Made by a program: the position numbers and the translations under genes. The notes below the pieces were generated by a model. That model searched no databases and was not told the origin of the DNA. It saw only the letters and a program-made list of their open reading frames with translations. From Sulfuritalea hydrogenivorans sk43H (GTDB lineage Bacteria > Pseudomonadota > Gammaproteobacteria > Burkholderiales > Rhodocyclaceae), in the NCBI GenBank assembly GCA_945870205.1, contig CAMBRI010000018.1, positions 1 through 34,363 of the forward strand: DNA of 34,363 nucleotides, in the 5' to 3' direction. Of the stretch, positions 10,548 through 18,508 are shown piece by piece; within the stretch, counting starts at the first letter, position 1, and each line of letters begins with the position of its first letter.

Positions 10548-10973
10548 TCAAAAGCCTTCCGCGATGTCGCGAGTTTCCAGCGGATACCCGCGTTCCCGAT
10601 AGTAGCGATAGCGTTCCCGGCCGGGCAGTCGGTCGTCTTCGGCGACACTGATGATTTCAATCAATTGCTGAAAGCGGCTGAACCCCGGCGGGATTTCGTT
10701 CGATAGATTCAATAGGCACTTGTCATGCGGCGGGTTGTCGAGTCCGGATGCAAGAAGTACCGGCGTTTCTGCCGCCAGACCCTCGTCGGAATTGCAGTGA
10801 GGCGTGAAGCCGGTGGCCGGTGTGGTCCACAACAGGCGGTCCAATTCCTTGCTGCGCTCTTCGGCGGGCACATATACCAGTACCTGCCTTCCTTCGCGGC
10901 ATTCCCGTCCGAGCCAGGCAGCGACCGCCTGCAGGCGATTGTGCGTGCCGTGGAAAAAGCTGATTTGCGTCAT
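10548..10973 (-). CDS. holC: DNA polymerase III subunit chi
   Basis: HolC is the clamp-loader-associated subunit that links polymerase III to single-strand-binding protein through the psi subunit. The 141-aa product shows the family pattern: [32 protein letters not shown] at the N-terminus, then [16 protein letters not shown], then the [20 protein letters not shown] block. ATG 10973 was chosen because it matches the family start and overlaps the pepA stop by four bases (ATGA). The longer frame into pepA is spurious. Order pepA-holC is the common proteobacterial arrangement. Confidence 0.93.
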
Positions 10974-12493
10974 GCCTGCTTGCGCTTGCGGGCCGGTTTT
11001 CGGGCGCGGGCTGCGCGATCCATCAGGAAATGGGTGAGCAAGGGAACCGGGCGCCCGGTGGCTCCCTTTTCCTTGCCGGAGCGCCATGCGGTGCCGGCGA
11101 TATCGAGATGGGCCCAGTGGTACTTTTCCGTGAAACGAGCGAGGAAGCAGGCTGCGGTAATCGCGCCGGCCGGACGGCCGCCGATATTGGCCATATCGGC
11201 AAAATTGCTCTTCAGCTGTTCCTGATAGTCATCGAGCAAGGGCAATTGCCAGGCACGGTCATAGGACTCCTGGCCAGCATCGAACAGTTCCCGTGCCAGT
11301 CCGTCGTGGTTGGCCAGCAGACCCGTGGTTACGTGTCCGAGAGCGATGACGCAGGCGCCTGTGAGCGTGGCGATATCGACCACGCAGTCGGGATCAAAGC
11401 GTTCAACATAGGTTAGGGCGTCGCAAAGTATCAGGCGACCCTCGGCATCCGTGTTGAGAATCTCGACCGTCTGCCCCGACATCGAAGTGATCACATCGCC
11501 TGGCTTTGTTGCCGCCCCTCCCGGCATGTTTTCGGTGGATGGAATGACGCCAACGACGTTGAGCGGAAGTTTCATCATGGCGGCGGCCTTGAGCGCACCT
11601 AGGACGCTGGCTGCGCCGCACATGTCATACTTCATCTCGTCCATTTCCGGGCCCGGCTTGAGCGAGATGCCGCCCGAGTCGAAAGTAATGCCTTTGCCGA
11701 CGAGTACCACGGGCTTTGCTCCGGAAACCCCTCCGGTATGGCGCAGCACGATGAATTTTGGCGGTTCGTGCGATCCTCGTGCGACCGAGAGCAGAGTATT
11801 CATGCCGAGCTTTTCCATATCGGCCCGATCAAGAATGTCGACGCCCAAGTTGTGCGACTTTGCAAGTTGCCTGGCCTGGTCGGCGAGATAGCTTGGGGTG
11901 CAGATGTTGCCCGGCAGATTGCCAAGATCCTTGGCGAGCGCCACCCCGGCAGCGATCGCGAGGCCTTCGGCCAAGGCTGCTTCTGCAGTGGCAAGCTCGT
12001 TGCGGCGGGTGACGCAAAACGTCAGCTTTCGCAGCGGGCGTCGCACCTCGTCTTTCTTTGATTTCAGGCTATCAAAGCGATAAAGCGTTTCCTGGACCAC
12101 GAACGCAGCCTGCCGAATTTTCCAGGCGACATCGCGCTTCTTGACGCCGAGTTCCGTCAGATAGAGCGTACCGTCGAAGCCGCCGGTTTCATTGAGTTGT
12201 CGAACCGCGGTGGACAAGGCGGCGCGGTACTCCTTTTCGCGGAACTCCTTTTCCTTGCCAAGCCCGACTAGCATTATGCGATCGGCCTCGACGCCTGCAA
12301 CGCCGTGGAGCAGCAGGCTGGTGCCGGCTTTCCCTTCCATGTCACCGCGACGCAGGATGTCGCTGAGAAACTGGTTGGCGGCATGGTCGATGACCTCCGC
12401 AGCCGCAGAAAGCTTTCTCGGTTCGAAGACGCCGACGACGACACAGGCGCTGCGTTGCTTTTCCGGGCTTCCACTTTTTATGCTAAATTCCAA
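10970..12493 (-). CDS. pepA: Leucyl aminopeptidase PepA (M17)
   Basis: A cytosolic two-metal aminopeptidase that removes N-terminal residues, leucine preferred. In E. coli it also binds DNA at plasmid-resolution and carAB sites. The 507-aa product contains the metal-ligand segments [16 protein letters not shown] and [14 protein letters not shown], plus DLGNLPGN and MGAGSHEP-like regions typical of M17. The start is TTG at 12493, with GGAG about seven bases upstream. The resulting [24 protein letters not shown] is the standard betaproteobacterial N-terminus and no ATG fits. It heads the pepA-holC-hypothetical operon and diverges from lptF. Confidence 0.96.
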
Positions 12494-13696: not shown

Positions 13697-14766
13697 AACT
13701 CTACGAGCGCCACCTCGCGCGCGAGATCTATGCGTCCACCGGACTGGTGCTCCTGGCCTTCCTGATGCTGTTTGCCTTTTTTGACCTGATCCACCAGCTT
13801 GAGAGCATTGGCAAAGGTGGCTATCAGCTTCAGCATGCGCTGGGCTATGTGACGCTGACCCTGCCGGGGCGGTTGTATGAGTTGTTTCCTATCGGTGTCC
13901 TGATCGGGACCCTGTATGCGCTGACAGTTCTTGCCCGTCACTCCGAGATTACCGTGCTGCGTGCTGCAGGCCTCTCTACCAGAGACCTCCTGATGACCCT
14001 GGGCAAGATCGGACTGGTATTCGCCGCATTGACACTGCTGGTGGGAGAACTGCTTGCCCCTCCGTCAGAGCGGGCAGCCCAGCAACTCAGGCTCAAGGCC
14101 ATGGGTTCTCTGGTGGCCCAGGAGTTTCGCTCCGGATTGTGGGTTAGGGATGAGCGCTCGTTCGTGAATGTCCGCGAGGTACTTCCGGACGCTTCCCTGC
14201 AACACGTGCGTGTGTTTCAGTTTGACGAGCGGTTCCAGTTGCTGTCGATCAGTCAGGCCGATCGCGGCCGCTATCTTGGTGCCGGCACGTGGTCACTGGA
14301 CGGAGTGGTCCGCACGGTGTTTTCGGGTGACTCGGCACATGTCGAACGCTATAGCGAACTGGCATGGAAGTCGGCGCTCAGTCCCGATCTGCTGGCAGTG
14401 CTCATGGTGGTGCCCGAGCGCATGTCGTTGGTCAACCTGTACCTTTTTATTCGTCACTTGAGCGGGAACCAGCAAAAGACTGATCGTTACGATATTGCAA
14501 TGTGGAAAAAGCTGATCTATCCCTTGGCTGCTCTGGTGATGATGGCGCTGGCGCTGCCGTTTGCCTACATGCAGGACCGGATGGGTGCGGTCAGTATTCG
14601 TGTATTTGCCGGAATCATGCTCGGTATCGGGTTCCACATGCTGAACGGACTGTTTTCCAGTCTCGGTGTAATCAACAGCTGGCCGCCCTTCTTTTCCGCA
14701 ATTACGCCGAGCGTTATTTTCCTGCTGACCGCTGCGGGCATGCTGTGGTGGGTCGAAAGGCGCTGA
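13687..14766 (+). CDS. lptG: LPS export ABC transporter permease LptG
   Basis: The second permease of LptB2FG. The 359-aa product shows the LptG pattern: LKLYERHLAREIYASTGLVLLAFLMLFAFFDLI, the LTLPGRLYELFPIGVLIGTLYAL helix pair, a periplasmic domain (about 125-265), and C-terminal helices with GFHMLNGLFSSLGVIN. GTG 13687 is the start, since GGGGGAAG precedes it at good spacing and the product has the family N-terminus. The frame extending to 13564 lies wholly inside lptF. The overlap with lptF implies coupled synthesis of the two permeases in equal amounts. Confidence 0.95.
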   Translation: MALKLYERHLAREIYASTGLVLLAFLMLFAFFDLIHQLESIGKGGYQLQHALGYVTLTLPGRLYELFPIGVLIGTLYALTVLARHSEITVLRAAGLSTRDLLMTLGKIGLVFAALTLLVGELLAPPSERAAQQLRLKAMGSLVAQEFRSGLWVRDERSFVNVREVLPDASLQHVRVFQFDERFQLLSISQADRGRYLGAGTWSLDGVVRTVFSGDSAHVERYSELAWKSALSPDLLAVLMVVPERMSLVNLYLFIRHLSGNQQKTDRYDIAMWKKLIYPLAALVMMALALPFAYMQDRMGAVSIRVFAGIMLGIGFHMLNGLFSSLGVINSWPPFFSAITPSVIFLLTAAGMLWWVERR

Positions 14767-14785: not shown

Positions 14786-15226
14786 CTAGTTGCGCTTGAA
14801 CACCAGCCGGGTACCGGCCAGCCGGTCATGAAGGAACTGCCGGTCGCGATCAAACAGCGCCCAGAGCACTCCAACACCCAGATAGACCAGGCTCGGCCAG
14901 GCCAGAACATAGCGCAGTCCGAGGCGAGCCAGAGATGGTTGCTCGCCGCTGGCTGTGGTCAGCCGGATCTTCCATGTCTGCATGGCCAGGGTTTGCCCCC
15001 AGCGATGCCAGTACCAGACAAAGTAGATGCCCAGCACGACAAAGACGTGAGCCAGCAATATCCAGCCTGGCACCGCGATGTCAAAGCCGATACCCAGAAC
15101 AACATGCGGTAGCATGAAGCTGACCGACAGGACGCCAAGGAGCAGCAGGCTTTCGTAGGCCATGCTGGCGATGCGACGACGGAGACTAGGTAGTTGATCC
15201 CCAAGGGTGGCCGCTGGGGCTGACAT
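14786..15226 (-). CDS. RDD family inner-membrane protein
   Basis: A 146-aa RDD-domain membrane protein of unknown transport or structural role. The first segment has SLRRRIASMAYESLLLLGVL (arginine-rich, then membrane), two more helices at about 45-70, and the C-terminal hallmark FDRDRQFLHDRLAGTRLV. An aspartate commonly found in the first helix of RDD proteins is a glutamate here (YESLL), as in many betaproteobacterial members. It is the last gene of the sigma-DUF3619-DUF3106-RDD run, nine bases after DUF3106, and converges on lptG. Confidence 0.85.
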   Translation of the reverse strand: MSAPAATLGDQLPSLRRRIASMAYESLLLLGVLSVSFMLPHVVLGIGFDIAVPGWILLAHVFVVLGIYFVWYWHRWGQTLAMQTWKIRLTTASGEQPSLARLGLRYVLAWPSLVYLGVGVLWALFDRDRQFLHDRLAGTRLVFKRN

Positions 15227-15235
15227 CGTGGCGCG

Positions 15236-15766
15236 CTAGCGGGCTGTGGGTCGATCGGCGGAAGTGACCGGCGGCGCAACGCTCGCGGCGGGCGCTTTGG
15301 CAGCGGCAGGAGTCTTGGAGGGTGCGGGACGTGGCGTTGGCTTCTTGACAGCCTCAGCCTTGAGGCGGGCTTTTTCGCTCTCGGGAAGCTCCTTGTACTC
15401 CTGCCATTTCTGCTTCACTGCCTCTTTCTTCTCGGGAGGGGCATTTTGCAGCGACATGTACTGGTCTCTTGCGCGCTTGCGCTCATCCGGCGTGAGTTTG
15501 GCCCAATCGGTCATCCGCCGCTGTATGCGGGCTTGCTCGTCGGGAGTCAAGGACGTGTAGCGCTGGGCAATACCGAGCCACTTCTTGCGCCTGAACCCTT
15601 CCATCTTGTCCCATTCGCCGGCCAAGGGCGCGAGAACGCGCTTCTGCTCTGCAGTCAACTGTGCCCATGAGGGTTGTGACAGAGGCGGGACAACGACTGC
15701 GTGGCTGAGCGGGGCGGCCAGCCAAAGCGCTACTGCGAGGATGAGTCCGAAGCGCGCTCGAGCCAT
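15236..15766 (-). CDS. DUF3106 periplasmic protein
   Basis: A 176-aa exported protein. Residues 1-23 form a signal peptide ending in SHA. Residues about 30-130 are charged and helical, built from repeats around the pattern W..LTPDE(Q/R)..R...(W/Y): LTAEQKRVLAPLAGEW, LTPDEQARIQRRMTDW, LTPDERKRARDQYMSL and ELPESEKARLKAEA. The remainder is alanine-, proline- and lysine-rich and probably disordered. The repeated LTPxE helices recall the LTxxQ motifs of periplasmic stress proteins such as CpxP and Spy, but this is a resemblance only. It overlaps the end of DUF3619 by 37 bases and belongs to the sigma operon. A periplasmic sensing or chaperone role is inference. Confidence 0.82.
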   Translation of the reverse strand: MARARFGLILAVALWLAAPLSHAVVVPPLSQPSWAQLTAEQKRVLAPLAGEWDKMEGFRRKKWLGIAQRYTSLTPDEQARIQRRMTDWAKLTPDERKRARDQYMSLQNAPPEKKEAVKQKWQEYKELPESEKARLKAEAVKKPTPRPAPSKTPAAAKAPAASVAPPVTSADRPTAR

Positions 15767-16116
15767 GCCTGGAAGCCTCGATCAAGATAAGCGGAAGGGG
15801 GCAGTTCGTCGGCCAGAAGGGCGCTGTCGATTTCCTCGTATTCCCTGGACTGCTCAAACGCATTCCAGTAGTAGGTGCCCGTGGCGCCTATGGTCAGGGC
15901 GAAGACAGCAAGCAGATTACGGACGTTAGGGAGCACTGCCAATTCCATCATGTGTCCGACCCCCGCCACACGCAGACCTCGCAACGGTACGCGCTGGCAA
16001 TTCAACGCTGACTGACGGGCCTCATGAAGGCGAACGCTCACTTTCTCGTCAAGGGTTTCCAAACCTTGATTGAGAATCTGCCTTGCCTTGTAGCCGAATT
16101 CCTTATCTTCATTCAT
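15730..16116 (-). CDS. DUF3619 protein, candidate anti-sigma factor
   Basis: A 128-aa single-pass membrane protein. The N-terminal 60 residues are cytoplasmic and helical (YKARQILNQGLETLDEKVSVRLHEARQSAL), a membrane helix spans about 66-84, and an acidic tail of about 45 residues probably lies in the periplasm. I recognise it as DUF3619. ATG 16116 overlaps the stop of the sigma gene (ATGA), so it is co-translated with the sigma factor. That position and topology are those of many ECF anti-sigma factors, so it may hold the sigma at the membrane. No recognisable zinc anti-sigma (HxxxCxxC) motif is present, so this role is inferred from context. Confidence 0.82.
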   Translation of the reverse strand: MNEDKEFGYKARQILNQGLETLDEKVSVRLHEARQSALNCQRVPLRGLRVAGVGHMMELAVLPNVRNLLAVFALTIGATGTYYWNAFEQSREYEEIDSALLADELPPSAYLDRGFQAWLERASDSSSQ

Positions 16117-16676
16117 AGCTCTATGCCCTTCGCCTTGAGTGCAGCAGCCAGAGTGTGCGTAGCGCGCGAACAGTGCGTTTTCACGCTGCCTTCCGAACAA
16201 CCCATCGCCGTTGCCGTTTCGGCAATATCCATTTCCTCCCAATAACGCATCAGGAAGGCTTCACGTTGACGTGGCGGTAGCTTCTCAATCTCTTTTTCAA
16301 TTACGCCAAGGAGTTGCGAGCGCTCCAACTGCCGGTGAGGTGTTGCCAGACCGTCTGACTCGCAATCAGCCGCAATAGTTTCAAGTGGATCAGAATCTTC
16401 ATCGTCATTGGGAGTCAGGGAGGATAGCAGTGTAGTCCACATCGAGCGCACCTTGGACCTGCGGTAGCTGTCGCGAATGGCGTTTTGAAGGATTCGCTGA
16501 AACAGCATCGGCCATTCGGTAACCGGGCGGTCACCGTACTTCTCGGCGAGACGCATCATCGCATCCTGGACGATGTCTAGTGCAGTTTCCTCGTTTCGAA
16601 TGGCAAACATGGCCTGTTTAAAGGCGCGCCGCTCAACGCTGGCAAGGAAATCGGAAAGTTCGGTTCGAGAACTCAG
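16113..16676 (-). CDS. ECF-type RNA polymerase sigma factor (CTG start)
   Basis: A 187-aa sigma-70 family factor of the extracytoplasmic-function type. Region 2 covers about 10-80, with the -10 recognition part ALDIVQDAMMRLAEKYG and WPMLFQRILQNAIRDSYRR. Region 4 covers about 125-180 (LPPRQREAFLMRYWEEMDIAETATAMGCSEGSVKTHCSRATHTL). The first ATG (16610) would cut off the first helix of region 2. The frame is open further upstream and encodes the family-like SSRTELSDFLASVERRAFKQA. The only usable start there is CTG at 16676, with AGGAG (16683-16687) six bases before it. No ATG, GTG or TTG exists in frame upstream of 16610. It leads a four-gene operon and diverges from ilvB. Confidence 0.87.
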   Translation of the reverse strand: MSSRTELSDFLASVERRAFKQAMFAIRNEETALDIVQDAMMRLAEKYGDRPVTEWPMLFQRILQNAIRDSYRRSKVRSMWTTLLSSLTPNDDEDSDPLETIAADCESDGLATPHRQLERSQLLGVIEKEIEKLPPRQREAFLMRYWEEMDIAETATAMGCSEGSVKTHCSRATHTLAAALKAKGIEL

Positions 16677-16682
16677 GGGGCA

Positions 16683-16687
16683 CTCCT
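16683..16687 (-). promoter_or_regulatory. Shine-Dalgarno fixing the CTG start of the sigma gene
   Basis: AGGAG on the minus strand, six bases before CTG 16676. It is the strongest ribosome-binding site in the interval and supports a CTG start over the downstream ATG at 16610, which has no Shine-Dalgarno. A candidate -10 (TATAGT, minus strand, 16723-16728) would place the transcript start about 40 bases before the CTG. Confidence 0.55.
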
Positions 16688-16732
16688 GCCGGGTCTCAGC
16701 AGTATTTCATTACAAAGAATGGACTATAAATC

Positions 16733-16761
16733 TTGACCATTCGCGGACGAGCCAGTAAGGT
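16733..16761 (+). promoter_or_regulatory. Sigma-70 promoter for ilvB
   Basis: TTGACC (16733-16738) and TAAGGT (16756-16761) are 17 bases apart. A start point near 16768 gives a leader of about 31 bases, too short for an ilv-type attenuator. TATACG at 16762 is an alternative -10 but at poor spacing. The divergent sigma-operon promoter overlaps this interval, so the two may interfere. Confidence 0.5.
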
Positions 16762-16798: not shown

Positions 16799-18508
16799 AT
16801 GCAGCTAACTGGCGCAGAAATCGTAATCAGGTGCTTGCAGGAGGAAAAGGTCGAGTATGTATTCGGCTATCCCGGCGGCTCGGTTCTCTATATTTATGAC
16901 GAACTCTTCAAACAGGACAAGTTCAAGCATGTTCTGGTTCGTCATGAGCAGGCGGCCGTTCATGCGGCGGATGCCTACTCCCGTTCTTCCAACAAGATCG
17001 GCGTCTGTCTGGTTACCTCGGGGCCCGGGGTGACCAATGCGGTGACGGGGATCGCCACGGCCCATATGGACTCCGTACCGATGGTGATCATCAGCGGACA
17101 GGTTCCGACCCAATACATCGGGCAGGACGCCTTTCAGGAATGCGACACGGTCGGGATTACCCGGCCATGCGTCAAGCACAACTTCCTGGTCAAGGATGTG
17201 AAGGACTTGGCGATAACTCTGAAGAAGGCCTTTTACATCGCCAAGACTGGCCGTCCCGGTCCGGTCCTGGTTGATATCCCGAAGGACATCACCAACCAGA
17301 AGTGCGAATTCGAGTACCCCAAGACGGTTGCCATGCGCTCCTACAATCCTGTGATCAAGGGGCACAGCGGGCAGATCAAGAAGGCGGTGCAGATGCTGCT
17401 CGAGGCCAAGCGGCCGATGATCTACGCCGGTGGCGGGGTGATTCTCTCCGACGCTGCGGAAAAACTGGTCAAGCTGGCGCGCAGTCTGGGTTATCCGGTA
17501 ACCAATACCCTGATGGGCCTAGGCGGTTATCCGGCGACCGACAAGCAATGGCTCGGCATGCTGGGCATGCACGGCACCTATGAAGCCAATATGGCGATGC
17601 AGAATTGCGATGTGCTAATTGCCGTGGGTGCTCGGTTCGACGATCGCGTGATTGGCAATCCGGTGCATTTTGCCGAGGTCGCGCGCAAGATCATTCACAT
17701 CGACATCGACCCGTCCTCGATTTCCAAGCGTGTCAAGGTCGATGTGCCGATCGTCGGCAATCTGCCTGACGTGCTGGACGAATTACAGAAAATGCTGGAA
17801 GCGTCTGCCGGCGTACCTGATGCGAAAGCGCTTGCTTCGTGGTGGAAGCAGATCGACGAATGGCGTGGCAAGAAATCGCTCAAATACAAGCAGGGCAAGG
17901 AAATTATCATGCCCCAGTATGTGGTTGAGAAACTCTACGAGGTCACGGGCGGCGATGCATTCATCACCTCTGACGTTGGCCAGCACCAGATGTGGGCGGC
18001 GCAGTACTACAAGTTCGACAAGCCGCGGCGCTGGATCAACTCCGGTGGCCTGGGAACCATGGGTGTCGGCTTGCCTTATGCCATGGGCGTACGGTTCGCC
18101 AACCCGAAGGCGACCGTCGCCTGCGTGACGGGCGAAGGTTCGATCCAGATGAATATTCAGGAGTTGTCGACCGCCAAGCAATTCCGCCTGCCGATCAAGA
18201 TCATCAATCTCAACAATCGCTATCTGGGAATGGTGAGGCAGTGGCAACAGATGTTCCATGGCAATCGCTACGCCGAATCCTATGTCGATGCGCTACCCGA
18301 TTTCGTCAAGCTGGCGGAGGCCTACGGGCATGTGGGAATGAAAATCGAGCGTCCCGCGGATGTAGAACCCGCCTTGCGCGAAGCCTTCACCAAGCACAAG
18401 AACGATCTGGTCTTCATGGATTTCCTGACCGATCAGACGGCTAACGTGTACCCGATGGTGGCGGCCGGCAAGGGTTTGTCGGAAATGATTTTGGCCGAGG
18501 AACTGTAA
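16799..18508 (+). CDS. ilvB: Acetolactate synthase large subunit
   Basis: The catalytic thiamine-diphosphate and FAD subunit of acetohydroxyacid synthase, which condenses pyruvate to acetolactate or with 2-ketobutyrate to acetohydroxybutyrate. The 569-aa product shows the catalytic glutamate region VRHEQAAVHAADAYSR, SGPGVTNAVTGIATA, the FAD region, and the thiamine-diphosphate metal motif near VTGEGSIQMNIQELST...NN. The usual GDG is GEG here; I recall that as a common betaproteobacterial variant. It is followed two bases later by its regulatory subunit. It is closer to E. coli IlvI in pattern, so ilvI would be an equally good name. No strong Shine-Dalgarno precedes the ATG. Confidence 0.95.
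   Translation: MQLTGAEIVIRCLQEEKVEYVFGYPGGSVLYIYDELFKQDKFKHVLVRHEQAAVHAADAYSRSSNKIGVCLVTSGPGVTNAVTGIATAHMDSVPMVIISGQVPTQYIGQDAFQECDTVGITRPCVKHNFLVKDVKDLAITLKKAFYIAKTGRPGPVLVDIPKDITNQKCEFEYPKTVAMRSYNPVIKGHSGQIKKAVQMLLEAKRPMIYAGGGVILSDAAEKLVKLARSLGYPVTNTLMGLGGYPATDKQWLGMLGMHGTYEANMAMQNCDVLIAVGARFDDRVIGNPVHFAEVARKIIHIDIDPSSISKRVKVDVPIVGNLPDVLDELQKMLEASAGVPDAKALASWWKQIDEWRGKKSLKYKQGKEIIMPQYVVEKLYEVTGGDAFITSDVGQHQMWAAQYYKFDKPRRWINSGGLGTMGVGLPYAMGVRFANPKATVACVTGEGSIQMNIQELSTAKQFRLPIKIINLNNRYLGMVRQWQQMFHGNRYAESYVDALPDFVKLAEAYGHVGMKIERPADVEPALREAFTKHKNDLVFMDFLTDQTANVYPMVAAGKGLSEMILAEEL

Follow-up and report, generated by a model that had tools for sequence, protein, structure and literature searches.

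In the RpoE-RseA-RseB system, the gene for an extracytoplasmic function (ECF) sigma factor is followed by that for a single-pass anti-sigma factor and then by that for a periplasmic protein. The Cnr genes are ordered cnrYXH, with CnrX acting as the periplasmic sensor, and the CpxP/Spy (LTXXQ) family comprises exported helical proteins that carry repeated LTP-type motifs. Here, we describe a locus that can be compared with these systems on contig CAMBRI010000018.1 of Sulfuritalea hydrogenivorans sk43H (assembly GCA_945870205.1, positions 1 to 34,363), the whole stretch of 34,363 nucleotides being referred to as the window. Four minus-strand genes between ilvI and lptG encode an ECF sigma factor, a DUF3619 protein, a DUF3106 protein, and an RDD membrane protein; the original prediction had read these four genes from the sequence, and each was found where it had been placed, on that strand and with a matching family. 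We put the probability at roughly 65% that the locus encodes a membrane signaling module in which DUF3619 holds the sigma factor, DUF3106 reports the state of the envelope, and a CUG start codon keeps the sigma factor scarce.

The succession of an ECF sigma factor, a single-pass membrane protein, and a periplasmic protein is shared with RpoE-RseA-RseB. Unlike in that system, the RseA and RseB domains were unmatched in the Pfam scan of the window genes at E ≤ 1, and RpoE is a separate gene, found above cut-off in 52 of the 60 genomes of the window's order that were examined. As in CnrYXH, there is a separate periplasmic partner (DUF3106 here, CnrX there), but the gene order is sigma factor, anti-sigma factor, periplasmic protein rather than cnrYXH, and no structure matched DUF3106 at E ≤ 0.001. 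A passage of PMC7406223 on class II anti-sigma factors describes the two helices of CnrY as wrapping the sigma factor, with helix 1 lying on sigma4 and helix 2 on sigma2. By this description, the CnrH-CnrY-CnrX system of Cupriavidus metallidurans would resemble the window locus in joining an ECF sigma factor to a short anti-sigma factor with a two-helix sigma-binding part, which for DUF3619 comes from a low-confidence model. The likeness of modeled DUF3619 to class II anti-sigma factors is one of form and does not imply kinship.

The evidence that carries the proposed module is read from sequences and consists of gene linkage, topology signals, a natural fusion, the CTG start, and an opposite pairing of the Shine-Dalgarno (SD) sequence with the start codon. 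Our order sample comprised 120 genomes, including the window's own, and matches above cut-off were found in 88 for NF006550 (the sigma factor), 85 for DUF3619, and 87 for DUF3106. All three genes stood together on one strand in 84 of the 120, which bears out the linkage that the original prediction expected a neighborhood survey to find. The RDD gene comes next in 74 of 88 order loci and is unmatched in all 70 gammaproteobacterial loci described below; given this absence, RDD is an add-on outside the core. Partial sets occurred in five order genomes: two held the sigma factor and DUF3106 without a DUF3619 match, the middle gene in both still having the DUF3619 C-terminal motif, and the others held, one each, the sigma factor alone, the sigma factor with DUF3619, and a weak DUF3106 alone. 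In a class sample of 274 genomes, DUF3619 matched in 23, of which two belong to the window's order (its own genome and one more); in the other 21, the matches were all weak and mostly made through the N-terminus. Loci were fetched from 20 of these 21 genomes outside the order, and all 20, selected through the weak DUF3619 match, hold this type of sigma factor and DUF3106; in one of them (L130), the sigma gene is split over two frames. DUF3106 matched in 74 of the 274 class genomes, and across the 70 gammaproteobacterial loci (20 obtained through DUF3619, 50 through DUF3106) the sigma factor was present in 64. Of 200 genomes sampled across the phylum, 13 gave a match to a DUF3106 profile, including two that lie outside the class. 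The core is the triad of sigma factor, DUF3619, and DUF3106, which occurs widely both inside and outside the window's order and is conserved across many proteobacterial families.

The sigma protein of the window matches NCBIfam NF006550 (E = 1.3e-81; 272.7 bits, curated cut-off 173 bits) and, above the curated Pfam cut-off, Sigma70_r4_2 (E = 6.1e-18); Sigma70_r2 falls under its Pfam cut-off (19.1 bits versus 24). The next three proteins match PF12279 for DUF3619 (E = 1.4e-26; 93.9 bits, curated cut-off 22.2 bits), PF11304 for DUF3106 (E = 5.4e-33; 114 bits, curated cut-off 24.3 bits), and Pfam RDD above its curated cut-off (E = 3.4e-18). The junction of the sigma and DUF3619 genes is ATGA, and the DUF3619 and DUF3106 genes overlap by 37 nucleotides; these couplings had been predicted correctly, but the RDD gene, which had been counted among the coupled genes, starts 9 nucleotides past the DUF3106 stop without overlap. 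An ATGA or GTGA overlap joins the sigma and DUF3619 genes in 62 of 87 loci, and DUF3619 starts are mostly ATG or GTG.

On sequence grounds, DUF3619 has the anatomy of an anti-sigma factor and is a putative sigma binder. It carries two conserved blocks, RLxxARxxAL toward the N-terminus and DAxLLxDDLPxxAYLDxGFxxWL toward the C-terminus, and for 85 of the 86 proteins measured, hydropathy indicates a single membrane span, preceded by a median of 67 residues. The N-terminal tail is more positive than the C-terminal tail in all 85, and lysine plus arginine are more numerous ahead of the span than behind it in 65, equally numerous in 12, and less numerous in 8. The structural model places helices at residues 3 to 20 and 24 to 41; a long helix then covers the span, and a further helix lies at the C-terminus.

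DUF3106 begins with a hydrophobic signal-like N-terminus in 82 of 86 proteins, two of the four exceptions being fusions, and in two genomes of one genus it is joined to DUF3619 as one protein. Given this fusion and the N-in, C-out topology of DUF3619, DUF3106 would lie in the periplasm beside the C-terminal motif of DUF3619. As modeled, it is an exported 18-residue helix repeat: mean predicted local distance difference test (pLDDT) scores reach at least 90 in every block of ten residues between 31 and 140, model helices begin at residues 57, 75, 93, 111, and 129, and the hydropathy autocorrelation is 0.57 at lag 18 and 0.34 at lag 36. There was no convincing sequence relative in the PDB (best E, 0.03), fold searches with Foldseek (no match at E ≤ 0.001) and VIA-align (best Z, 4.3, unrelated) gave none either, and CpxP, Spy, and CnrX were among neither the Foldseek nor the VIA-align matches listed. 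DUF3106 had been proposed as a periplasmic sensor or chaperone akin to CpxP/Spy. A role as the periplasmic partner of DUF3619 agrees with the signal-like N-terminus and the fusion, but kinship with CpxP/Spy was rejected: both are exported helical proteins with LTP-type repeated motifs, but DUF3106 is built on the 18-residue repeat, PF07813 was unmatched at E ≤ 1, and the hhalign probability was 2%. Two LTXXQ (PF07813) proteins are encoded elsewhere in the window's genome, both above cut-off (G000:C91:2921-3205 and G000:C58:10852-11142).

The sigma gene of the window starts with CTG at position 16676, a codon that the original prediction had not pointed out. Its frame is free of ATG, GTG, and TTG from the upstream stop to codon 23, which is the earliest in-frame ATG (16610). 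Of 88 order loci, 57 have CTG as the aligned start, 17 ATG, 9 TTG, 2 GTG, and 3 another codon, two of these three with ATG as the next codon downstream. Among the best 80 of at least 571 named loci, chosen by score and leaning to Rhodocyclales and Burkholderiaceae, it is CTG in 48, ATG in 29, and TTG, GTG, and CTC in one each; of the taxa listed, those with ATG include Burkholderia, Paraburkholderia, Trinickia, and Collimonas, and those with CTG include Rhodocyclales, Sulfuricella, and Aromatoleum. Pooling gave 167 genes, or 164 distinct ones after removal of three named loci that duplicate order loci; the pool omits one broken sigma gene (L101) and one at a contig edge (L119). The start is CTG in 102 of the 164, ATG in 48, TTG in 9, GTG in 3, and CTC and CCC in one each, so that 162 have NTG, and the sole CTC case (Rugosibacter) has an ATG four codons 5' of the aligned start. 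Internal columns of more than 95% leucine in CTG-type genes use CTG in just 20 to 54%. Of the 57 order CTG loci, 30 show an in-frame stop upstream and no canonical start from there to the CTG; in 17 of the 30, no canonical start occurs through codon 20 either. Control genes gave ATG in 62 of 63 (ilvH) and 61 of 62 (ilvC), and 30 RpoE genes gave ATG in 24, TTG in 2, GTG in 1, CTG in none, and an unresolved start in 3. The CCCCC run that precedes the CTG raised the idea of a sequencing error, which was rejected because the CTG is conserved across loci. In gammaproteobacterial loci, 6 of the 70 lacked a sigma match and 10 lacked a readable FL motif; CTG stood at the same distance from this conserved motif in 24 of the remaining 54. 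Two others (L161 and L164) lack CTG at the usual codon as well as any ATG, GTG, or TTG from the upstream stop to the FL motif, and may possibly use another unusual start. On an 87-row tree, the CTG label changes at least 9 times on the best tree, and well-supported branches force one change only. The CUG start codon of the sigma factor is an old feature; PMC9845219 cites a figure of 20 annotated CUG starts among 69 bacterial genomes, or 0.024% of open reading frames (ORFs).

The CUG start comes with a particular ribosome-binding context. Near-copies were removed (165 to 131) before the SD, upstream-conservation, and promoter-motif tests, and an SD sequence was scored as a match of at least 4 nucleotides spaced 4 to 11 nucleotides from the start. 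It precedes 62 of 86 CTG genes but only 1 of 31 ATG genes, with 5 of 9 TTG and 1 of 3 GTG genes (CTG versus ATG, Fisher 4.5e-12, uncorrected for kinship); at shifted positions, the counts were 7 to 15 of 86 in the CTG set and 1 to 4 of 31 in the ATG set. Among gammaproteobacterial loci, an SD sequence stands before 21 of 24 with CTG versus 8 of 27 in which the codon is not NTG. SD sequence and start codon pair oppositely, CTG with an SD sequence and ATG without one. In the 86 CTG genes, upstream information content is low save for the SD sequence and, slightly, the last codon before the start, and a protein-type three-base periodicity runs from codon 2 on. A section of PMC11497404 reports that CUG initiation complexes are less stable in vitro than AUG, GUG, and UUG ones. 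We infer that synthesis of the sigma factor is under selection for a low, set rate that keeps the protein below its anti-sigma factor. With CUG kept across the split of Beta- and Gammaproteobacteria alongside a strong SD sequence, and AUG lineages lacking one, stabilizing selection on a translational set-point is the explanation toward which we lean.

Start codons that hold down expression have been described elsewhere. The AUU start codon of infC, in 1987 work by Butler and by Brombach, reportedly serves autocontrol by IF3 and limits expression. The likeness lies in an unusual initiation codon that limits a gene's expression; unlike infC, the sigma gene has CUG rather than AUU, and regulation by IF3 is a feature of infC of which there is no sign here. 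In Listeria, a portion of PMC13068326 relates that a weaker rsbW start codon raises SigB activity, an effect attributed to altered RsbW:SigB stoichiometry. On that account, start-codon strength in an operon of sigma factor and antagonist alters sigma activity, as it may here, but the Listeria change affects the antagonist gene and arose under selection, whereas in our locus the unusual start codon belongs to the sigma gene and is old.

The promoter of the sigma gene does not look autoregulated. Of the patterns tried, no ECF-type -35 element is enriched upstream (GGAAC in 17 of 131 versus 9 to 20 in shuffles), and GGTCAA, considered as an autoregulated ECF promoter (64 of 131), was rejected when it proved to be the -35 element of ilvI itself: among order loci, it is present in 32 of the 63 that have an ilvI match and in 0 of the 21 that have none. 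An extended -10 element, TG[CTG]TANNAT, which we read as of the sigma-70 type, occurs in 61 of 131 upstream regions versus a shuffled mean of 1.5; the window's own upstream region is without it. Given these three results, weak sigma-70 transcription of the sigma gene is more likely than autoregulation.

In the mechanism that we propose, DUF3619 would tether the ECF sigma factor to the inner membrane, with its two N-terminal helices on the cytosolic side and its C-terminal LPxxAYLDxGFxxWL motif on the periplasmic side. Exported DUF3106 would dock onto this motif and signal an envelope condition, and a change in DUF3106 would release the sigma factor. The sigma gene would be transcribed from a weak, probably sigma-70-type promoter, and the CUG-initiated sigma factor would be scarce relative to the translationally coupled DUF3619. 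Several results weigh against this mechanism or its parts, the unenriched ECF -35 element among them. Confidence in the DUF3619 model is low (pLDDT, 69.5; predicted template modeling score, 0.29). In a coupling analysis of 212 sigma-DUF3619 pairs (effective number, 151), the cytosolic part of DUF3619 took 14 of the top 40 couplings versus 17.7 expected, and the periplasmic part, where contact is impossible, took 19 versus 14.7 expected; the strongest coupling (sigma residue 44 with DUF3619 residue 41), also the top one in the betaproteobacterial subset, is weak, and the analysis was underpowered. Loosely aligned neighbors also gave CTG as first codon (ilvI, 1 of 65; RDD, 2 of 27), and 30 of the 54 gammaproteobacterial loci lack CTG at the aligned position. 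The SD contrast may stem from few events, given that just one independent pair falls on supported branches, which leaves the phylogenetic test powerless.

The coupling result, in not favoring the cytosolic part, would suit DUF3619 being an adaptor, with a different protein inhibiting the sigma factor, and no solved structure in the PDB convincingly matched DUF3619 by sequence (best E, 0.48, unrelated). We hold this to be improbable, as overlapping coupling, one-span topology, a two-helix cytosolic part, and co-occurrence with the sigma factor all point to an anti-sigma factor; the original assignment of that role to DUF3619 keeps the support of position, coupling, topology, and predicted helices and drew no enrichment from the coevolution test. 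The sigma/anti-sigma pair could also be real with DUF3619 itself as the sensor, DUF3106 and RDD being only co-transcribed envelope genes. DUF3619 does carry its own conserved periplasmic block, RDD is absent from 14 of 88 order loci as well as unmatched in the gammaproteobacterial ones, and one order genome (G063) has the sigma factor and DUF3619 with DUF3106 unmatched. The constancy with which DUF3106 accompanies the pair, in the 84 order genomes and in all 20 loci that were selected through DUF3619 from beyond the order, and its fusion to DUF3619 in two genomes make such a bystander role unlikely. As for the start codon, the CTG might instead be conserved through constraint at the nucleotide level, as part of an RNA or regulator site, with translation beginning upstream or downstream; in favor of this, 27 of the 57 order CTG loci do not combine an upstream in-frame stop with the absence of a canonical start between. 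We regard this as very improbable: the aligned codon is NTG in nearly every distinct sigma gene, conservation upstream of it is slight save for the SD sequence, periodicity sets in at codon 2, and the single CTC gene has its ATG close by on the 5' side. We continue to favor the signaling module, in which DUF3619 would bind the sigma factor, DUF3106 would sense, and CUG would serve stoichiometry.

Table 1. Features of the sigma/DUF3619/DUF3106 locus in the window
Feature	Positions	Strand	Basis
ECF sigma factor gene (NF006550/PRK09047), 187 aa (amino acids), CTG start	16113..16676	-	ORF, Pfam and NCBIfam matches
CTG start codon of the sigma gene, conserved	16674..16676	-	
SD sequence AGGAG, 6 nucleotides 5' of CTG	16683..16687	-	read from sequence
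In-frame TAA, 11 codons 5' of CTG, no ATG/GTG/TTG between	16707..16709	-	
DUF3619 gene (128 aa), overlapping the sigma gene at ATGA; product a proposed class II-like anti-sigma factor with a single membrane pass	15730..16116	-	
DUF3619 predicted cytosolic two-helix segment, residues 3-41, holding the RLxxARxxAL block	15994..16110	-	
DUF3619 most hydrophobic stretch, residues 59-77, transmembrane	15886..15942	-	hydropathy
DUF3619 conserved C-terminal block DAxLLxDDLPxxAYLDxGFxxWL, residues 97-119, periplasmic by topology	15760..15828	-	
DUF3106 gene, hydrophobic signal-like N-terminus, then repeats	15236..15766	-	ORF, Pfam
DUF3106 six 18-residue units, residues 37-144	15335..15658	-	model and hydropathy autocorrelation
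RDD membrane protein gene, accessory member	14786..15226	-	Pfam
TTGACC, likely -35 element of divergent ilvI, outside the sigma system	16733..16738	+	

The flanking genes ilvI (divergent, start at 16799) and lptG (convergent with RDD, stop at 14766) were identified in the window by their sequence, without a family search. Across 89 loci (88 fetched from the order and the window), a divergent ilvI occurs in 65, a convergent lptG in 56, and pepA in 48, counts that contig ends depress. The RDD gene and lptG do converge, as had been predicted for the lipopolysaccharide (LPS) export genes; LPS stress as the cue, derived from lptFG, was rejected, having been inferred from a convergent neighbor alone. 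The TTGACC element is followed downstream by a conserved block, likely the ilvI promoter or leader. The pepA gene (window positions 10970-12493) and its orthologues show a conserved non-ATG start of their own, with GTG in 35, ATG in 8, and TTG in 4 of 47 aligned loci. In G076 (L045) and G031 (L049), genomes of roughly 1.9 and 1.7 Mb that each form a single contig, the triad sigma factor is the only NF006550 match at E ≤ 0.001, and G031 has one RpoE match only, a weak one; the triad sigma factor may be the sole ECF sigma factor kept in a streamlined genome. The broken sigma gene of L101 stops after just 59 codons in a genome rated 68% complete, reflecting either decay or an assembly error. Alignments A1 and A2 hold 40 and 39 loci hand-picked from the 89, and A3 and A4 hold the window with 45 and 38 of the 80 named loci.

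The literature searched, from which supplements were excluded and outside of which subscription papers mostly fell, made no mention of DUF3619, DUF3106, PF12279, PF11304, PRK09047, or NF006550, and the titles and abstract openings of work on ECF classification, ilvI/RDD, and unusual starts gave nothing on the triad, which appears to be undescribed in that literature. Gene callers limited to ATG, GTG, and TTG starts are likely to misplace the N-terminus of the sigma factor, and the stoichiometry idea is open to a direct start-codon swap test. If our reading is true, most of the sampled genomes of the order (84 of 120) and, judged by DUF3106, about a quarter of the class sample (74 of 274) would carry an envelope-signaling sigma system apart from RpoE. 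The DUF3619 and DUF3106 families would gain a testable role, and the sigma gene would offer a case of a bacterial regulator whose CUG start codon is deeply conserved.

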